Shown piece by piece: positions 24,521 through 34,820 of a DNA stretch of 64,000 nucleotides. The position numbers were made by a program, and so were the translations under genes. The notes under the pieces are model-generated. The model made no database searches, was not told where the DNA came from, and saw nothing but the letters and a program-made list of their open reading frames with translations. Origin of the DNA: Phycisphaerae bacterium (GTDB taxonomy: Bacteria; Planctomycetota; Phycisphaerae; UBA1845; PWPN01); assembly GCA_030372985.1 (NCBI GenBank), contig JAUCQB010000140.1, positions 1-64,000 on the forward strand. Reading direction: 5' to 3'. Numbering within the stretch: the first letter of the stretch is position 1; the number at the start of each line of letters is the position of its first letter.

Positions 24521-26428
24521 TCAATTGGACAGCCCGGTGACCTCCGGAATCCACACGGTCATTTCGCCCGGTGCGCGGTTGTCCCAGACGCAGTAGGGCA
24601 CGGCGGTCAGCTCGACCGGTTCGGCCTGCGCCGGTGTGGGCAGATAGAGCTTGTCCTTCCAGTCGCGAGCCGGGTACTTGAGACCCCTGGCTTTGACCGT
24701 CAGGATACCGCCGAGCATGTCGGGCTCGAACTCGGTCTTGAGTTCAGAGTCTCGCGGCAGAACCAGGTCAAACACCTTGCCGCCGTTGTCGACCGCTTCC
24801 AGACAGAAGACCATCGGACCGCGTTGCAGGGCGATTCGCCCGCGGTTCGCGGCCACGTTCGGATGAGCCTGGATTCGCCGGACCGGCATCGGCATGTCCA
24901 TCTCGATTGCATCGCCGGTGTTCCACTGTTGCCGGATCACCGCATATCCCTTGTCCATGGTCGGGTTGGCGATCGCCGTTCCGTTCACACTGACCGTGGC
25001 CTTCTCGCACCATTCGGGCACGCGGAGGTTCACTGCAAACTCGGCCGGCGTCTTGGGGGCGACGTTGATCTTCACTCTGCCGTCCCACGGATACTTCGTG
25101 TCAACCGCCAGCTTGACCTCGCCGGACTTGAGCGGAATGGTTGCCTCGCCCGCCATGTACAGGTTCACCCAGATGCCGTCGTCGGACCGGGCATAGGCGT
25201 AGCCCGGCACCTGCGGCATGACTCGAACGATGTTCGTCGGGCAGCAGGCACAGCCATACCACGGCTTGCGGTGGTGCTCGCCCTTGCTCGATAGCGGGTT
25301 CACATAGAAATAGGTGTCGCCCTTGAGCGAAACTGAAGATGGAAACGCATTGTACAGTTCTCGCTCGAGGACGTCGGCGAAGCGGCTTTCGCCGTGCAGG
25401 ATCAACATCCGGTGAGCCCAGAACGCCAGGCCGATGCCGGCGCAGGTCTCGGCGTATGCCGAGTCGTTGGGCAGTTCGTAGGCCCCGCCGAAGGCCTCGC
25501 CTTCGTGCCGGGCTCCGACGCCACCGGTGACATAAAGCTTGCGCGTCACGACGTCGTGCCAGATGGTGTCGAGAGTCTGCAGATATTCTTTGTCGCCGAT
25601 GATCGCCGCGACGTCGGTCACACCCGAGTAGAGATACATCGCCCGAACCGCGTGGCCGACGATCTCCTTCTGCTGCTTGATCGGGATGTGGTCCTGAAGG
25701 TACTCCGACTTCGGCGCGGGCTTGGTGCCGCGGGCGGCGAGGAAGTACTCGGCCAGCTTCAGATACCGATCCTCGCCGGTCTTGCGGTACAGCTTGACCA
25801 GGCCCAGTTCGATCTCCTCGTGGCCGGGCACGCCGTGCCGCTTGTCAAAACCGAAAATGCCCTCGATGTGGTGTATGAACTTGCGGGCGACGTCCAGGAA
25901 GTCGGTCCTGCCGGTCGCGTCAGCCCAGGCCACGGCCGCCTCGGTCATGTGCCCGGCACAGTAGAGTTCGTGCATCTTTGGCAGATCAGTCCAGCGCTTG
26001 TCCGGCTCCATCACGGTGTAATAGGCGTTGAGGTAGCCGTCGGGCTGCTGGGCGGCGGCGATCCTGGCGATGATCGCGGCGATACGGGCCTCCATGTCCT
26101 TGTCCGGATGAGCGGCCAGGATGTGGGCCGCCCCTTCCAGCACCTTGTAGACGTCCGAGTCGTTGAAATAGGCGCCTTCGTACTTGCCCTCCATCTTGCC
26201 GGCCGCCTTGTCGAAGTTGGAGATCCGGCCGGTCTCCTCGCACATCTTGATATTGTGCGGCAGCGTGACCGTCCGGTTGACCTCAAGCCGCGGAGCCCAG
26301 AACGAATCGCTCAGCTTCACCTGCGTCGGCGACACCGCCTTTAATCTGGCGACCCCTGTCTCGCCGGCAGACGCCATGGACACCACGCAAGCCGCCGCCA
26401 CTGTCGCAAAGATCATCCTGAACTCCAT
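24521..26428 (-). CDS. Glycoside hydrolase family 127 (beta-L-arabinofuranosidase-like), secreted
   Basis: LSDSFWAPRLEVNRTVTLPHNIKMCEETGRISNFDKAAG; HGESRFADVLERELYNAF; KPWYGCACCPTNIVRVMPQ; start placed at MEFRMIFATVAAACVVSMASAG. Confidence 0.9.
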   Translation of the reverse strand: MEFRMIFATVAAACVVSMASAGETGVARLKAVSPTQVKLSDSFWAPRLEVNRTVTLPHNIKMCEETGRISNFDKAAGKMEGKYEGAYFNDSDVYKVLEGAAHILAAHPDKDMEARIAAIIARIAAAQQPDGYLNAYYTVMEPDKRWTDLPKMHELYCAGHMTEAAVAWADATGRTDFLDVARKFIHHIEGIFGFDKRHGVPGHEEIELGLVKLYRKTGEDRYLKLAEYFLAARGTKPAPKSEYLQDHIPIKQQKEIVGHAVRAMYLYSGVTDVAAIIGDKEYLQTLDTIWHDVVTRKLYVTGGVGARHEGEAFGGAYELPNDSAYAETCAGIGLAFWAHRMLILHGESRFADVLERELYNAFPSSVSLKGDTYFYVNPLSSKGEHHRKPWYGCACCPTNIVRVMPQVPGYAYARSDDGIWVNLYMAGEATIPLKSGEVKLAVDTKYPWDGRVKINVAPKTPAEFAVNLRVPEWCEKATVSVNGTAIANPTMDKGYAVIRQQWNTGDAIEMDMPMPVRRIQAHPNVAANRGRIALQRGPMVFCLEAVDNGGKVFDLVLPRDSELKTEFEPDMLGGILTVKARGLKYPARDWKDKLYLPTPAQAEPVELTAVPYCVWDNRAPGEMTVWIPEVTGLSN

Positions 26429-26520: not shown

Positions 26521-27696
26521 CTATGTCGGCTCGGCGGAGGGGCAGGCGAATCGCCGGGTAAGGCAACGGCCGATCCGGACGGCGTGGGCCACGAGGGGCC
26601 AGCCGGGGTGGCGGCCACGGTAGAGCTGGGCCAGGTGCGACCGGGCGGGCAGGAGCACGGCGCGCAAATAACCCAGCCTGAAACGGAGGCCGGGCGTACA
26701 GAGCATGTTCACCGCAAGGGCGGCCAGCGGATGCGTTGCGTCGCGCGGACTCTGGGCCAGAGCGAGCCGGTCCCTCCACCCGGCGCGACAACTGCTCAAC
26801 GCGAGGAGCGTTCGCCGAAGGTAAACGGAGGACTCGCCGAAGAGCCGGTCAACCTGCTCCAAGGCAAGGCGGACCGGCCAGCCGAGCTTCCACTTGCGGC
26901 ACTTGTCGGCCATCGATTCGACGTCCATGCGGTCGCCGTATCGATCCAGCCAGAGCTTCAGGTCATAGAGCCATTTCAGTTCTGCCGCATCATGGCAGGC
27001 TGCATGCACTGCCAGGTGAATGAGCATGTTCTCCACGTTGGGGATCTGCACCGTCAGCCGTCCATAGCTGACGGACATGGGCTCATCCCACATGGCGTCA
27101 TCCGGCAGCGTCACCGCATAGCGCAGCGGACGGAACGGCCGGACGTGCAGGTCGATCTTCACCTCCGGCCGGCAGGGGAGCAGGTATTCCCGTTCATAGT
27201 AGTAGCGAGGATAGAAGTCCTCGCGGAGCAGGTCGAGGCCCGGACGGCAGCCGACAGTTCTCAACGCCGCATCGGCCCGGCCGGCGTCAACAGGCCGTAT
27301 CAGCAGATCGACGTCCGTCATCGGCCGCAGCCCCGGCCCGTCGTAGAGCGCGGCGTTGAGCGCCGCACCCTTGAGTACCAGAAAGGCTACGCCGGCCTTC
27401 TGCAGGCATTCGAGGGCGGGTTCGGCTCTCTCCAGCCCATAGGCGGTTGCCGCCGCCACGTGTTGCCTGTAGGAATCGAGCTGAATCGCCGCCGACCGGG
27501 GAATCTCCACATCTCGGGCGGCCATGTTCCGCGCGACCGCCCCGCCCACACCCGAGGAGCAGGCGTGGTCCACAACCTGGCCCCACAGGCCGTTGCGCCA
27601 GAACGCCTCGACGACCATGAAAGCCCGGTCCGTGAGGCAATCCGCCACCAGCCGGTTGAGGCGATCGACAGGAGCGTCTGAGATGCCGTACGCCAC
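26521..27696 (-). CDS. PF14907-like uncharacterised nucleotidyltransferase
   Basis: AFLVLKGAALNAALYDGPGLRPMTDVDLLIRPVDAGRA; GTG start with GGAGG upstream, overlapping the previous gene's end region. Confidence 0.75.
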   Translation of the reverse strand: MAYGISDAPVDRLNRLVADCLTDRAFMVVEAFWRNGLWGQVVDHACSSGVGGAVARNMAARDVEIPRSAAIQLDSYRQHVAAATAYGLERAEPALECLQKAGVAFLVLKGAALNAALYDGPGLRPMTDVDLLIRPVDAGRADAALRTVGCRPGLDLLREDFYPRYYYEREYLLPCRPEVKIDLHVRPFRPLRYAVTLPDDAMWDEPMSVSYGRLTVQIPNVENMLIHLAVHAACHDAAELKWLYDLKLWLDRYGDRMDVESMADKCRKWKLGWPVRLALEQVDRLFGESSVYLRRTLLALSSCRAGWRDRLALAQSPRDATHPLAALAVNMLCTPGLRFRLGYLRAVLLPARSHLAQLYRGRHPGWPLVAHAVRIGRCLTRRFACPSAEPT

Positions 27697-27697
27697 C

Positions 27698-28654
27698 TTA
27701 TACCTCCGCCCCGGCTTGGCGGCTGAAGAAGGTCTCAACCAGGTCGCACGTCGTTGCGAGATGACCGCAGCGAAGGTGGTAGCAGCCAGCCTTTTCCACG
27801 ACGTCGGCCAGCAGATGAAAGCCCGGGGCCCGGAACTTCCCGAAGTTGAAAGAGCAGCGCGTCAGCTCGAACACCATGTGGGCCCGCGACACGCGTTCGA
27901 TCACCGGCGTGGTCGAGTGATTGACCTCGGGGAGAATGATCATTCCCACGCGGCAGCGGCCTGAAACCACGTCGGGGCGGATCTTGAGCGGATTGAGCAT
28001 GGCTACCCGCCCTTTTTCGCCCTTGTAGTAAACGCGGTCGGCATCGATCGGCAGTCGCATCCGTCGCAGGGTGTCGAAAGACCCGGCCTTGACGCACAAG
28101 GCCTTGGGGTAGGGCTCAACCAGCCGGGTGTCGGGATCGAGCAGAGCGAATTCATCGGACAGATAAGACCAGCCCCGGCTGAGCAGGGCGGCCGCCAGCG
28201 TGGTCTTGCCCTGACCAGGCTGCCCCGGACAGGCGATCGCCACCCCGTCGCGGGCCACTACCGAGGCGTGAATCTGCAGATACTGCGGTAATCGCGTGGC
28301 GACCATGGTGTTGATGGCCCATTCCACGTGGGGGAGTATCTCGTTCTCATTGCGGACCGCGAACAGGCTTTCGCCGTTGGCCACCACGTGGTAGTAGCGC
28401 CGCAGCGATCGCGCGGACCGCTTGGCGATGACGTCGATCGCGAACTCGTCTCCGGTCGGGCTCGCGACCGCGTAGGCTCGGTACAACTCGTGGAAATCAT
28501 CCGCAACGCCCGGCACAACGCTGGTCAGCGACACGGGTACCGGCCCGATCCGGTAATGGCGGACCTCGGGCTTGGAGCCGAACAGACTGAACACGGCCCG
28601 CGATGGGGCGGGGGCGGAGGCCTGTCTCGTGTTGACGGCGGCAAGCTGGGTCAT
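27698..28654 (-). CDS. HPr kinase-related (HprK-like) protein
   Basis: ASVVARDGVAIACPGQPGQGKTTLAAALLSRGWSYLSDEFALLDPDTRLVEPYPKALCVK. Confidence 0.75.
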   Translation of the reverse strand: MTQLAAVNTRQASAPAPSRAVFSLFGSKPEVRHYRIGPVPVSLTSVVPGVADDFHELYRAYAVASPTGDEFAIDVIAKRSARSLRRYYHVVANGESLFAVRNENEILPHVEWAINTMVATRLPQYLQIHASVVARDGVAIACPGQPGQGKTTLAAALLSRGWSYLSDEFALLDPDTRLVEPYPKALCVKAGSFDTLRRMRLPIDADRVYYKGEKGRVAMLNPLKIRPDVVSGRCRVGMIILPEVNHSTTPVIERVSRAHMVFELTRCSFNFGKFRAPGFHLLADVVEKAGCYHLRCGHLATTCDLVETFFSRQAGAEV

Positions 28655-28992
28655 GGGGCCGACTCGATCAATCCGTTCTCGGTCAGGCGTGACAGGGTGG
28701 AGCGAACATCGTCGCGAATCACGGCCAACGGGTGGTCCTGTTGGGTGTTCGGCTCGAACCCCGCCGCAACCTCCAGAGTGATGTCTTCAACATCTCGATG
28801 GCCGTTACAGCAGTTCCAGATGAACCAGGCGGTACGATTAAGGTAGTGGACCGCGTGGTGAGCGGGATCGTAGAGAACGGCCTCGTCATCGAATGCGCGA
28901 CAACAAAGGCCCTCGCGCCGAATGGGCTTCCAGCGTCGCTCGTCGCTTGGAGTGTTCATCCGTGAACCAGCCGACATCTTCATGGAATCCAT
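28651..28992 (-). CDS. PqqD-like peptide-binding (RRE) protein
   Basis: EAVLYDPAHHAVHYLNRTAWFIWNCCNGHRDVEDITLEVAAGF...LAVIRDDVRSTLSRLTENGLIESAP is a typical PqqD pattern; true start may be Met at 28959; 4-bp overlap with HprK-like gene. Confidence 0.8.
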   Translation of the reverse strand: MDSMKMSAGSRMNTPSDERRWKPIRREGLCCRAFDDEAVLYDPAHHAVHYLNRTAWFIWNCCNGHRDVEDITLEVAAGFEPNTQQDHPLAVIRDDVRSTLSRLTENGLIESAP

Positions 28993-29009
28993 CGGTCGCG
29001 TCAGTTACT

Positions 29010-29228
29010 TCACGAGTAAATTCGCGACGCGCACGCCGGACGCGGCCGTAACAGCAACACCACCGGAGATACATAGGCCAGTTTGCGCACCGAACAACCG
29101 AGGAAGCGGCGCCGCGTCCCGCTCGAGTCCTGCTTTTCGGAATCAGCAGCCTCTGAGGCGCCGACCTCGACCTGCGGGTCCTCCGGCTCGGCGGGGATGA
29201 AACTGCTTTCCGATCGACGATGATCCAC
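29010..29228 (-). CDS. Small putative precursor peptide (72 aa, GTG start) of the PqqD/HprK/nucleotidyltransferase cassette
   Basis: GTG preceded by GGGAGG at 7 nt; acidic N-terminal half then RRRFLGCSVRKLAYVSPVVLLLRPRPACASRIYS; directly upstream of PqqD-like gene. Confidence 0.55.
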   Translation of the reverse strand: MDHRRSESSFIPAEPEDPQVEVGASEAADSEKQDSSGTRRRFLGCSVRKLAYVSPVVLLLRPRPACASRIYS

Positions 29229-29383
29229 CCAAAAGCCTCCCATTCTCCTGACAACCTTCGCGCAGCGCACCGCTGCCCTCCACCATGGTTATCGGCCATT
29301 CTTCGCGGGGTATGGAGTCAAAAGACGAGAGCCCGAAGCCGCGTCAACAGGACGGTAAACCGCTCTGTTATCGGACTGTTCGA

Positions 29384-30143: not shown

Positions 30144-30361
30144 GCACATGGCCCTGCCTTCGCAACACGACCAAAAACGGGGTGCACCCGCGTGGGCCCG
30201 GCTCGCAACCAAGCCTGACTCTGCTGCGTTCGTGCTCGCCGGAAAAGCCGCCTTGTCGCACAACGCACGGCCGAGCCTCTCCTTGCCCTCTGGACAGCCC
30301 CAATCGGCCGGGATAGCCTTTGGCCCAATCAGATGCACGTGATGATGGAAAGGATCGACCC

Positions 30362-31726
30362 ATGAGATCGTATCGCTGCTCTTGCCTGGTAATGTGCCTG
30401 ATCCTCCCGCTGTTTGCCCAGGGAGCTGAAATGGCCAAGGAATCTCCCAAGCTGAAGGATGAACGGATGCAATGGTGGCTCGATGCCCGGTTCGGCATGT
30501 TCATTCACTGGGGTACCTATTCGCTGGCCGCACGCCACGAGTGGGTGAAGAACTACGAGCGGACCCCAACCGATGTGTACCGGAAGTACTTCGAGCACTT
30601 CGACCCCGACCTCTATGACCCGCACGAGTGGGCCCGGGCGGCCAAGGGCGCGGGCATGCGCTACTTTGTCATCACCACCAAGCACCACGAGGGCTTCTGC
30701 CTGTGGGACTCCAAGTTCACCGACTACAAGGTGACCAACACGCCTTACGGCAAGGACCTGATCAAGCCGATGGTCGAGGCCTTCCGGGCCGAGGGGCTGC
30801 GGGTCGGTTTTTATTACTCGCTGCTCGATTGGCATCACCCTGATTACACCGTCGACAAATGCCACCCCATGCGTGACAACAAGGAAGAGCGCGAGAAGAA
30901 CAAGAATCGTGACATGAAGCGGTACGTGGACTACGTCGAGAACCAGTTGCGCGAGCTGCTCACGCAATTCGGCCCGATCGACTGCCTGTTCGCCGACTTC
31001 TCGTTTCCCGGTGACGACGGCAAGGGCCGCAAGGATTGGCAGTCCGAGCGCCTGCTCAAGGTTGTCCGCGAGCTCCAGCCCAACTGCCTGATCAACGATC
31101 GGCTTGACCTGCTCGATCGCCCCGACGGCTGGGATTTCCGCACGCCCGAGCAGTTCATGCCGCGATCCTGGGTCAGCATGGATGGCGTTCGCGTGCCCTG
31201 GGAGACCTGCCAGACCTTCAGCGGCTCGTGGGGCTATCACCGTGACGAAGCGACCTGGAAGAGCCCTCAGCAACTGATCGTCATGCTCATCGAGACGGTC
31301 AGCAAGGGCGGCAACCTGTTGCTCAACGTCGGTCCGACCGCCCGCGGGACGTTTGACGAACGGGCCCTGGAATGCCTGGGCTTCATGGGCGATTGGATGT
31401 GGCTCCACGGCCGGTCCATCTACGGTTGCACCGCCGCACCGGACGAGTTCAAGAAGCCCGACAACTGCCTGTTGACCTACAACCCCAAGACACGTCGACT
31501 CTACGTACACGTGCTCGTCTGGCCGATGGGCAAGCTCCACTTTGACGGCATCGCCGACAAGGTGGCCTATGCCCAGTTGCTCAACGACGCGAGCGAGGTC
31601 AAGTTCAGTCGCAGCGAAGGTGGAGCCTGGATGTCCGGACAAGGTGGTCAAAACGCCGTGACCTTTGATCTGCCCGTCCGCCAGCCGAACACTGTCGTGC
31701 CAGTGATCGAGCTGTTTCTGAAGTGA
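30362..31726 (+). CDS. Alpha-L-fucosidase (GH29-like), secreted
   Basis: MQWWLDARFGMFIHWGTYSLAARHEWVKNY; YFVITTKHHEGFCLWDSKFTDYKVTNTPYGKDL; SWGYHRDE; GGNLLLNVGPTARGTF. Confidence 0.92.
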   Translation: MRSYRCSCLVMCLILPLFAQGAEMAKESPKLKDERMQWWLDARFGMFIHWGTYSLAARHEWVKNYERTPTDVYRKYFEHFDPDLYDPHEWARAAKGAGMRYFVITTKHHEGFCLWDSKFTDYKVTNTPYGKDLIKPMVEAFRAEGLRVGFYYSLLDWHHPDYTVDKCHPMRDNKEEREKNKNRDMKRYVDYVENQLRELLTQFGPIDCLFADFSFPGDDGKGRKDWQSERLLKVVRELQPNCLINDRLDLLDRPDGWDFRTPEQFMPRSWVSMDGVRVPWETCQTFSGSWGYHRDEATWKSPQQLIVMLIETVSKGGNLLLNVGPTARGTFDERALECLGFMGDWMWLHGRSIYGCTAAPDEFKKPDNCLLTYNPKTRRLYVHVLVWPMGKLHFDGIADKVAYAQLLNDASEVKFSRSEGGAWMSGQGGQNAVTFDLPVRQPNTVVPVIELFLK

Positions 31727-31785
31727 ACGAGTGCGATCGGGACGTCGCAGCGTTCGTGGGTTTCTTTGCACGGAGTCAGGTCAAG

Positions 31786-33561
31786 ATGCGACTAACCAGC
31801 CATCCGCGTTTTCTCGCGATTCTGTCCTCGATTTCGATCATGGTCGCCGGTGCCCAGGCGGAGACGGTCATCCGGTTGCCCGGCAGCGACTTCGCCGGCG
31901 GCGGCAAGGACAAGTTCGGCGCAAGCCAGAAGGGTGAGCAAACCAACTACGTCTATGCCCACCCGACAGGGGCGTGCTCGGTCATGCAGGCCAGCTTCTC
32001 GCTGAAGGTCGTACCGGCAGAGCCGATGTTTCTGCACCTGAAGGCCTGCGACGATGACGCAGCGGCCACATGCAGAATCCGGATCACGCTCAACGGCAAG
32101 AGCCTCTGGGACGGCCCCAGCGAGTTTCGCAGCGACGCGTTTGAAGTGCGGCGGATCGCCATTCCGGCCGACGCGCTCAACGCCGGCGAAAATGAACTGG
32201 TGATCGCCAACACCGAACCCAAGGGCGAACTCGGCATACCGCCGTGGTTCATGGTCGCCGCCTGCACGGTCGCGCCGGAAAAGTACACATACGGCCCGGA
32301 CATCACCAAGGATTTCGCCGTGACGCTGCCGGCCCAGAAGCGGCCGCTGCCCGAACCGCTTCCGGACGGCCGGAAACCGGGCTTTGCCGTCCGCGGCACC
32401 AAGGGCTGGGGCTGGTTTCCCGAGCAGTACTTGGCGGAGATCCCCACGCTGGCGGCCTGCAAGATGAACTTCCTCATGAACTGCTACCTCAGCATGTGTG
32501 ATATCGAGCACTACCCGTGGGGCGACAAACGCTGTAACCGCTGGTGGGAACCGCTGCCGGAAGCGAAGAAAAAGGCATACGAGCGGATCGTCCGCGAATG
32601 CCAGAAGGCCGGCATCGATTTCTGCTTCAGCATGAACCCCAATCTGGGAGCCGAGCGCATTCTCGACTACGGCAAGGCCGAGGATGTCGACGTCCTGTGG
32701 AACCACTACCGCTGGATGCAGGAGCTGGGCGTGAAGTGGTTTAACATCGCCTTGGACGATATCTCCGAGGGCATTGATGCCTCCGGACAGGCGAAGGTGG
32801 CCAACGAGTTTCTGAAACGGCTGCGCGCCGGCGACCCAGACGCCCAGTTGATCGTCTGCCCGACGTGGTACTGGGGCGACGGCACAGACGCCAGGTACCG
32901 CCCCTATCTGGAGACGTTCGCCCGCGAGCTGGACAAGAATATCTACTTGTTCTGGACTGGTGACGCCGTGGTGATCAACCGCATTACCCGCAAGTGTGCA
33001 GAAACTTACAGGGGGATCGTGAAGCACCGGCTGATCCTGTGGGACAACTACCCGGTGAACGACAACAACCCGACCATGCACCTCGGCCCGGTGTTCGGGC
33101 GTGACCCGGATCTTTGCGAGGTCATCGACGGCTACATGAGCAACCCGCTCTGCAAGCAGAACGAGATCAACCGCATCCCGCTGATGACCTGCGCCGACTA
33201 TGCCTGCAACCCGTGGGCTTACGACCCCGCACGCTCAGTCGGCCAGGCGATTCTCCATTTCACCGATGATGCGGACCAGCGGGATCTGGTCAAGGACCTG
33301 GTTGAGGCGTATTCGGGCATGCTGTACTACGGCAAGGGCACGAGCTTCAACGCGGTCCGCGACCAGTACGCCCGCATCGCGGCGGCCCCACATTCTCGAT
33401 ATGTCGCGAGCATGTACATCGACAATGTGCAGTCGCTGGCCCGCCGGGCGGAGAGGACCTTTCCCGGCCGACTCAAGGCCGAGCGGCAGACAATCGTCGA
33501 TGACGTCACCTGGATGAAACGCGCGTTCGCCGAGAAGTACGGACCGGAGAAAGCTGAATGA
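31786..33561 (+). CDS. Beta-N-acetylglucosaminidase-like (GH84/PF07555-like) secreted protein
   Basis: GFAVRGTKGWGWF...CKMNFLMNCYL...FNIALDDISEG...LILWDNYPVND; signal peptide MRLTSHPRFLAILSSISIMVAGAQA. Confidence 0.7.
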   Translation: MRLTSHPRFLAILSSISIMVAGAQAETVIRLPGSDFAGGGKDKFGASQKGEQTNYVYAHPTGACSVMQASFSLKVVPAEPMFLHLKACDDDAAATCRIRITLNGKSLWDGPSEFRSDAFEVRRIAIPADALNAGENELVIANTEPKGELGIPPWFMVAACTVAPEKYTYGPDITKDFAVTLPAQKRPLPEPLPDGRKPGFAVRGTKGWGWFPEQYLAEIPTLAACKMNFLMNCYLSMCDIEHYPWGDKRCNRWWEPLPEAKKKAYERIVRECQKAGIDFCFSMNPNLGAERILDYGKAEDVDVLWNHYRWMQELGVKWFNIALDDISEGIDASGQAKVANEFLKRLRAGDPDAQLIVCPTWYWGDGTDARYRPYLETFARELDKNIYLFWTGDAVVINRITRKCAETYRGIVKHRLILWDNYPVNDNNPTMHLGPVFGRDPDLCEVIDGYMSNPLCKQNEINRIPLMTCADYACNPWAYDPARSVGQAILHFTDDADQRDLVKDLVEAYSGMLYYGKGTSFNAVRDQYARIAAAPHSRYVASMYIDNVQSLARRAERTFPGRLKAERQTIVDDVTWMKRAFAEKYGPEKAE

Positions 33562-34820
33562 AAGTCGGTGTCGCCCAGGTTGACATCACGCCCGAGCCGG
33601 GCTGCGAATTGTCCGGTTTCGCGGCTCGCACTCAACCGTCGATCGGCGTGCTCGACCGACTGTACGCCAAATGTCTGTACTTGGTGGAGGGCGACGAGCG
33701 ACTGCTTTGGATCCACGTGGACCTGATCGGCTTGCTGCGGGAATTCGTGCTTGATTTCCGCGAGTGGGCGGCGGCGAAACTGGGCCTCAAGGCCTCGCAG
33801 GTATTGATTTCGGCCATCCACACGCATTCCGGGCCGGCAACCGTTGAGATCTCAGAAGCAGGCCGCTACGACTCGGCGTATGTGCAATTCCTGCGTGCAC
33901 GACTGGAAGAAGCGGCCCGAGAGGCGATTGAGAACACGACGGCCTGCACACCGGTTTTCGTTGAGGGCAGATGCGATCTGGCCGTCGATCGGCGTAAGAA
34001 GGCCTCGGCCCGGACCGATCCTCGCGTGGCCGCGTTCGGATGGCGGCGCGACGATGGCAGCTTTATCGGCGCCCTGACCAACTACGCGATGCACGCCGTG
34101 GCACTGGGTCCGAGCAACCGCATGATCAGCGCGGACCTGCCAGGCCGCACGGCCGCGATCCTGTCCGAGCGACTGCCCGGCCGTCCGATCGTGCTGGCCA
34201 CCAACGGGGCCTGCGGCAACCTCAACCCGCCGTACGAGCACATCACTTCCGAACAACTGTCGGTATGGGGCGGACAAGTCGCCGACGCCACGTCGGGTTT
34301 GCTGCCTGAGGCTGTGCCCCTGACCGATTGCACCCTGCGGCTGGCGTCGCGCGTGGTACCGATCGCATTGGACGTATTGGGCGTTGATCAGATTAACGAG
34401 ATCGCCGACCGCTACATCGGCCATGCCGACAGTGTCGGCGAGTGGGGTGACCGCTATGTGCGGGCACTGGAGAAGTGGCGTCGATCGCGCACCGAGGAAG
34501 TGCGAGACGGGCAGTGCGCGGCCACGGCGGACATGGAAATCTTCGCCGTGCGACTCGGCCCGGCGGTGATGCTCGGTGTGAATGCCGAGGTTTTCAGCGC
34601 GTTCACCGACCTGGTCCGCGAGGCCACCGGGCGCAGCGTGTACACGGTCGGCTACGCCAATGGCGTGCGCGGCTACCTGCCGACGAAGGTCGCCTACGAT
34701 GAAGGTGGGTACGAGGTCGAAACCGCTCACTTTTTTTATAACAGCTTCCGCTTCAAGCCCGGTGGTCTGGAACACTTGGCCGATGAAGCTGTGCAACTGG
34801 TGCGTTCGTTCTTTGCGTGA
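33558..34820 (+). CDS. Neutral/alkaline non-lysosomal ceramidase-like protein
   Basis: MKVGVAQVDITPEPGCELSGFAAR; LISAIHTHSGPATV; FGWRRDDGSFIGALTNYAMHAVALG; NGACGNLNPPY; ATGA overlap with upstream gene. Confidence 0.75.
   Translation: MKVGVAQVDITPEPGCELSGFAARTQPSIGVLDRLYAKCLYLVEGDERLLWIHVDLIGLLREFVLDFREWAAAKLGLKASQVLISAIHTHSGPATVEISEAGRYDSAYVQFLRARLEEAAREAIENTTACTPVFVEGRCDLAVDRRKKASARTDPRVAAFGWRRDDGSFIGALTNYAMHAVALGPSNRMISADLPGRTAAILSERLPGRPIVLATNGACGNLNPPYEHITSEQLSVWGGQVADATSGLLPEAVPLTDCTLRLASRVVPIALDVLGVDQINEIADRYIGHADSVGEWGDRYVRALEKWRRSRTEEVRDGQCAATADMEIFAVRLGPAVMLGVNAEVFSAFTDLVREATGRSVYTVGYANGVRGYLPTKVAYDEGGYEVETAHFFYNSFRFKPGGLEHLADEAVQLVRSFFA

Follow-up and report, generated by a model that had tools for sequence, protein, structure and literature searches.

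A candidate phosphopeptide cassette with a Tat-like leader in a planctomycete resembles the linear polyphosphorylated peptide pathway

What could be made by four packed genes for a 72-amino-acid peptide, a PqqD-type protein, an HprK-like kinase and a PF14907 nucleotidyltransferase in a Phycisphaerae bacterium? The genes lie on the minus strand, at 29228-26521, of a 64,000-nucleotide stretch of this genome (contig JAUCQB010000140.1, positions 1 to 64,000; hereafter the window). The original prediction, made from the sequence alone, proposed an uncharacterised, non-lasso phosphopeptide pathway of the RiPP type (ribosomally synthesized and post-translationally modified peptides), with the small open reading frame (ORF) as precursor. 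Our data favour the pathway: we hypothesize that the cassette is a phosphopeptide system resembling that of the linear polyphosphorylated peptides (LPP), in which one leader would serve both for recognition by a RiPP recognition element (RRE) and for export by twin-arginine translocation (Tat), with removal by the ordinary signal peptidase. We put the probability of this reading at roughly 60%.

All four ORFs were recovered head to tail in the order precursor, PqqD-type RRE, kinase and nucleotidyltransferase (Table 1). The predicted 4-bp overlap between the PqqD and kinase ORFs is present, the GTG of the nucleotidyltransferase follows one base past the kinase stop, and PqqD starts 17 bp beyond the end of the precursor ORF. 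The precursor start is backed by the alignment of relatives (MDH...) and by GGGAGG at 29241-29236, 7 nt upstream of its GTG. Within its last 35 residues the precursor carries a conserved leader composed of [ST]RRxFL, YxxPx[VI] and AxA. The layout in relatives is [ST]RRxFL, about 9 residues, YxxPx[VI], and then AxA at a distance of 16 residues from the Tyr; of 51 distinct leaders, most contain [ST]RRx[FVIL][LVMI], and across the leaders the Pro of YxxP is invariant and the Tyr nearly so.

We searched the window with a 32-residue leader profile in a leave-one-out design, and the precursor ranked first of 1124 ORFs (E 1.6e-13; next ORF 0.31). A profile of knottin-type leaders only (see below) still recovered it (E 8.3e-11). 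In three pairs of the related loci L036, L039 and L040, codon changes in the leader were 38 synonymous and 0 nonsynonymous, and those in the five-residue core ASPSS were 11 and 0. The leave-one-out match and the nearly all-synonymous changes in leader and short core rule out a chance ORF. The small peptide predicted upstream of PqqD is thus real and conserved. Its C-terminal Ser, to which the original prediction had drawn attention, is not the conserved element, which instead is the Tat-like YxxP leader with its signal-peptidase site.

We then surveyed 61 genomes around the window (its own order and family), 28 kinase-positive and 33 kinase-negative, for the co-occurrence that the original prediction had suggested examining. 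The leader profile matched 25 of the 28 kinase-positive and none of the 33 kinase-negative genomes (Fisher P 3.7e-14, uncorrected for kinship). Because some seeds of the profile were drawn from these same 61 genomes and kinship was uncorrected, the informative results are the 0 of 33, the one further match in 294 genomes of the wider phylum, the single match in the window's own genome (next E 1.5) and the leave-one-out search. Absence of the profile from the 33 kinase-negative relatives and from nearly all 294 phylum genomes also rules out a generic Tat signal.

Precursor and enzymes are moreover encoded as single proteins in some relatives. We found fusions of kinase and precursor (L052, L053, L094, L107), of PqqD and precursor (L057/L110, L075) and of PqqD with a VKOR-DsbA protein (L072, L077), and these gene structures argue that precursor, PqqD, kinase and VKOR-DsbA belong to one system. 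Such fusions bear on the view that the enzymes serve another substrate, an HPr-like or envelope protein, and that the small ORF just happens to lie beside them. The kinase is indeed related to HPr kinases, and an NCBIfam search of the tested precursors matched no family, but fusion of the precursor to kinase or PqqD in several loci, together with the co-occurrence, already disfavours this view, and we consider it very improbable.

The enzyme identities held in profile searches. Residues H129, G149, K150, T152, D167 and E168 of the kinase are invariant in 22 relatives, with Walker A G-K-T at 149-152, and the catalytic residues, whose loss would have spoken against the prediction, are therefore intact. 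At E<0.001, all PDB matches of the kinase profile were HPr kinases, in alignments spanning the His, the Walker A motif and the Asp region. An AlphaFold2 model (predicted local distance difference test, pLDDT, 92) led Foldseek to the PEPCK/HprK-type fold, and the protein is predicted to be a kinase of that fold. Conserved residues of PqqD are D42, N52, W59 and C62; searching the PDB with PqqD as a single sequence yielded no useful match. In the nucleotidyltransferase, the motif LKG...RPMTDVDLLI is conserved across loci.

The same kind of gene set is found in HPr-rel-A (TIGR04352 kinase, TIGR04353 PqqD). The window kinase is nearest to TIGR04352 and the window PqqD matches TIGR04353 among other families, but the kinase reaches 186.8 bits against a cut-off of 200, and PqqD 29.0 bits against 35, the latter cut-off being exceeded by the relatives L077 and L072. 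Since both window proteins fall below the cut-offs, the pair appears by that test to be a sister group of HPr-rel-A and no member of it. A SynChlorMet cassette was rejected (ScmC 16.1 of 125 bits, ScmD 34.3 of 100 bits).

The closest functional parallel is LPP, described from Bacillota, to which its authors called it restricted (Popov et al. 2026, Nat Commun, PMC13381572). It comprises the RRE LppB, the HprK-like kinase LppK, the nucleoside triphosphate (NTP) transferase LppN, the SipW-like peptidase LppS and the ABC exporter LppD; Ser3 of the core is the residue that LppK phosphorylates, and the RRE binds YxxP of the precursor LppA, with the Tyr at -16 (PMC13381572). The window shares with LPP a discrete RRE gene, an HprK-like kinase with intact catalytic motifs and an NTP transferase, the PF14907 enzyme being paired with LppN by enzyme class. 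Also shared are the YxxPx[V] motif with its Tyr at -16 from the cleavage site, a Ser just past that site, a site of signal-peptidase type in the leader (LPP having a leader peptidase of signal-peptidase-I type) and the lack of a macrolactam cyclase, Asn_synthase being unmatched on the window contig. There are differences as well. The window leader, YVSPVVLLLRPRPACA, departs from the LPP consensus YxxPxVLxHQxIxFETxxS; it has a twin-arginine motif and ends in AxA, whereas the LPP leader has HQxIxFET. No Peptidase_S26 match that could mark a SipW-like LppS, and no ABC_membrane match that could mark an MsbA-like LppD, was found on the window contig; in the own genome ABC_membrane occurs only on contigs C171 and C243. 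The host belongs to Planctomycetota, cores are short or knottin-like, and knottin loci have a VKOR-DsbA partner. We conclude that the cassette probably works like LPP yet is not to be classed as LPP, because LppS and LppD, looked for on the contig, and the leader consensus are lacking. Contrary to what had been proposed, the system is not wholly uncharacterised, since its enzyme set is partly described, but it lacks what defines LPP.

In lasso clusters of the paeninodin type, an RRE, an HprK-like kinase and an NTP transferase act as tailoring enzymes (PMC13381572), with a WxxP leader in place of the YxxP of the window. A lasso cluster was ruled out, in agreement with the original prediction: the contig has no Asn-synthetase-like cyclase, and the genome has no B2 leader peptidase (PF13471).

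How, then, would the peptide leave the cell? We propose Tat export because LppS and LppD are not near, the leader can be read as a Tat signal and the own genome encodes TatC and signal peptidase I. A Tat signature consists of [ST]RRx[FL], a hydrophobic region (h-region) and AxA at fixed spacing, and the window leader (TRRRFL...ACA) has all three. Tat would let an already modified or folded precursor through, and ATP-dependent modification would have to precede export. Alternatively, the RR pair might be a mere basic patch for enzyme docking in a plain RiPP leader, with export by Sec or by an exporter encoded elsewhere. In some leaders V, I or M stands where FL is expected, LPP employs an ABC exporter and the own genome has other ABC exporters, all of which would suit that explanation; fit to the Tat signature at fixed spacing, and the failure to find any exporter gene recurring in the cassette neighbourhoods, argue against it, and we regard it as rather unlikely.

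The cores were compared in a collection of 73 non-redundant kinase loci (including a scan of named genomes), 54 of them with a recognised precursor. Twenty-six precursors have short Cys-free cores, mostly of 5-14 residues (SRIYS in the window; SGGSQLTKP, ASPSS and ASGVSATS elsewhere), and 28 are Cys-rich, mostly with 6 or 12 cysteines, two of the latter being Mariprofundaceae loci of different make-up. All 47 distinct cores have a Ser within +1 to +5 after the AxA site. Among Cys-type cores this holds for 27 of 27 vs 11.6 expected (0 of 5000 shuffles), and among short cores for 20 of 20 vs 17.4 expected by shuffling. This enrichment just past AxA, the position phosphorylated in LPP, bears on a further explanation, in which PqqD and kinase perform quality control for a Tat substrate, PqqD keeps hold of the Tat leader for as long as the passenger is unready, the kinase acts on the leader or N-terminal region and the secreted product stays unmodified. 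PqqD-type proteins do bind leaders, the leader here is Tat-like, and towards its N-terminus the precursor is acidic and rich in Ser. This N-terminal part is not conserved, however, and the enriched Ser lies elsewhere, so that we judge quality control unlikely.

In 22 aligned single-knottin cores, six cysteines are invariant with cystine-knot spacing, CX(4-11)C..CC..C..C, a pattern resembling venom and plant knottins; the window core SRIYS has no Cys. A knottin-core profile found 46 PDB sequences at E up to 1, nearly all of them cystine-knot toxins and inhibitors, in matches driven by the cysteines. One core modelled with AlphaFold2 reached a moderate mean pLDDT of 68.6, and its best Foldseek match was weak (a spider peptide, E 4.9). 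Among L097, L106 and L100 the leader shows 23 synonymous and 2 nonsynonymous changes and the core 18 and 24, varying around fixed cysteines. A VKOR-DsbA fusion gene is present in 16 of 22 Cys-type loci vs 0 of 21 short-core loci, a difference whose P of 3.6e-7 is inflated by kinship because core type switches only about three times on the kinase tree, VKOR nearly always changing in the same direction.

Several loci with related parts were noticed beside these. In genome G027, L175:4885-5433 encodes another precursor, a double knottin, and no kinase was found in the surrounding 11 kb; the genome has the cassette on another contig, and its enzymes may act on this precursor in trans. At L174:6020-10064, in another planctomycete family, nucleotidyltransferase, precursor, PqqD and kinase occur with a C-P-rich core rich in CxPxxC (QSASCQPENCHPVDCIPGDCNPGPC...). 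In Mariprofundaceae (L116:804-1217, L117:3931-4398, L118:3894-4304, L119:3993-4439), a Cys-rich ORF of about 136-155 amino acids with a leader-like RR..YxPP start is followed by a radical SAM/SPASM gene (in L117 and L118, with a comparable ORF in L119) and by genes for PqqD and an HprK-like kinase; this is probably a separate peptide-modification system. A variant cassette at L056:8260-14496 has genes for two B12-binding radical SAM proteins between those for precursor and PqqD, and also encodes the kinase and the nucleotidyltransferase.

From gene order, leader conservation and spacing, co-occurrence, fusions, the knottin cysteine pattern and the presence of TatC and signal peptidase, all of which are read from sequence, we infer the following pathway. 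In the cytoplasm PqqD would bind the leader at YxxPx[VI] and bring the precursor to the HprK-like kinase for phosphorylation of a Ser within the first five residues past the AxA site. The PF14907 enzyme might add a further group, dependent on the phosphate. The modified precursor would leave through the cell's Tat pathway by its twin-arginine motif, hydrophobic stretch and AxA, and signal peptidase I would cut the leader, freeing the modified core as a short peptide, which in the window is SRIYS. Where sister loci encode a knottin-like passenger, the VKOR-DsbA product would form its three disulfides after export. The product would most likely be a secreted signal or an antagonistic peptide.

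Besides the inflated VKOR-DsbA statistic, several points weigh against this phosphopeptide reading. Whereas LPP clusters bring their own peptidase and transporter, the cassette encodes neither, and a five-amino-acid product is unusual for Tat. About a fifth of the kinase loci have no recognised precursor, in part owing to contig ends, and three loci (L035, L038, L065) have a degenerate leader in which K replaces the motif Tyr. The nucleotidyltransferase step is a guess, because no activity of LppN was seen in the published LPP system (PMC13381572).

The same replacement occurs in L098, also a relative from the window's clade; these four leaders read, for instance, KAAPVILLL or KAAPLILVL and precede cores that include TSHVSS and SNHSS, and RRE recognition may have shifted in them.

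Table 1. Positions of the cassette genes and of the precursor elements in the window
Feature	Coordinates	Strand	Comment
Precursor peptide gene	29010..29228	-	72 amino acids, GTG start, MDHRRSESSFIPAEPEDPQVEVGASEAADSEKQDSSGTRRRFLGCSVRKLAYVSPVVLLLRPRPACA then SRIYS; small ORF kept upstream of PqqD in relatives
Twin-arginine-like motif T-R-R-R-F-L, residues 38-43	29100..29117	-	RR invariant in A2 and A3
RRE-binding-type motif YxxPxV (YVSPVV, residues 52-57)	29058..29075	-	Y at -16 from predicted cleavage site
Signal-peptidase-type AxA site A-C-A, residues 65-67	29028..29036	-	Same spacing in nearly all leaders; putative cleavage
Predicted core SRIYS, residues 68-72	29013..29027	-	Position from alignment
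PqqD-family RRE (peptide chaperone)	28651..28992	-	113 amino acids, Pfam PqqD 6.6e-13
HprK-like kinase	27698..28654	-	318 amino acids, TIGR04352 E 4.2e-55 (below cut-off), intact motifs
PF14907 nucleotidyltransferase	26521..27696	-	391 amino acids, GTG start, Pfam E 5.7e-40

The neighbours of the cassette are ordinary (GH127, isochorismatase, alpha-L-fucosidase, an aminoacyl-tRNA editing domain), and a promoter and terminator scan gave nothing informative. The flanks at 24521-26428 and 30320-34820 encode GH127 beta-L-arabinofuranosidase-like, alpha-L-fucosidase and beta-N-acetylglucosaminidase-family proteins and a ceramidase-like N-terminal domain. Downstream of the cassette, L050, L083 and L086 have glycosyltransferase genes or similar ORFs, which recalls LPP clusters in polysaccharide loci.

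An open literature search on HPr-rel-A, SynChlorMet, bacterial knottins and RiPPs with VKOR returned no papers, RRE-Finder and a 2025 structure-based RRE paper make no mention of HPr kinases or Planctomycetes, and no description was found of kinase-modified, tag-exported peptides combined with knottin-like proteins. It is possible, at a little under even odds in our estimate, that a RiPP-type pathway here extends beyond the phylum of LPP, with a leader that is both RRE recognition site and Tat signal and a kinase that phosphorylates secreted peptides, including bacterial knottins oxidised by VKOR-DsbA. If so, RRE-guided modification would be linked to the export of folded, disulfide-knotted miniproteins. 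The peptide systems built on kinase, RRE and nucleotidyltransferase reach from Bacillota into Planctomycetota, and the relatives point to a family of bacterial knottins that seems not to have been described; a 32-residue profile of its defined leader allows it to be searched for. Fusions, and short versus knottin cores, offer natural experiments on the role of the orphan PF14907 enzyme, and the proposed pathway makes predictions that can be tested in a phylum about whose secreted peptides little is known.
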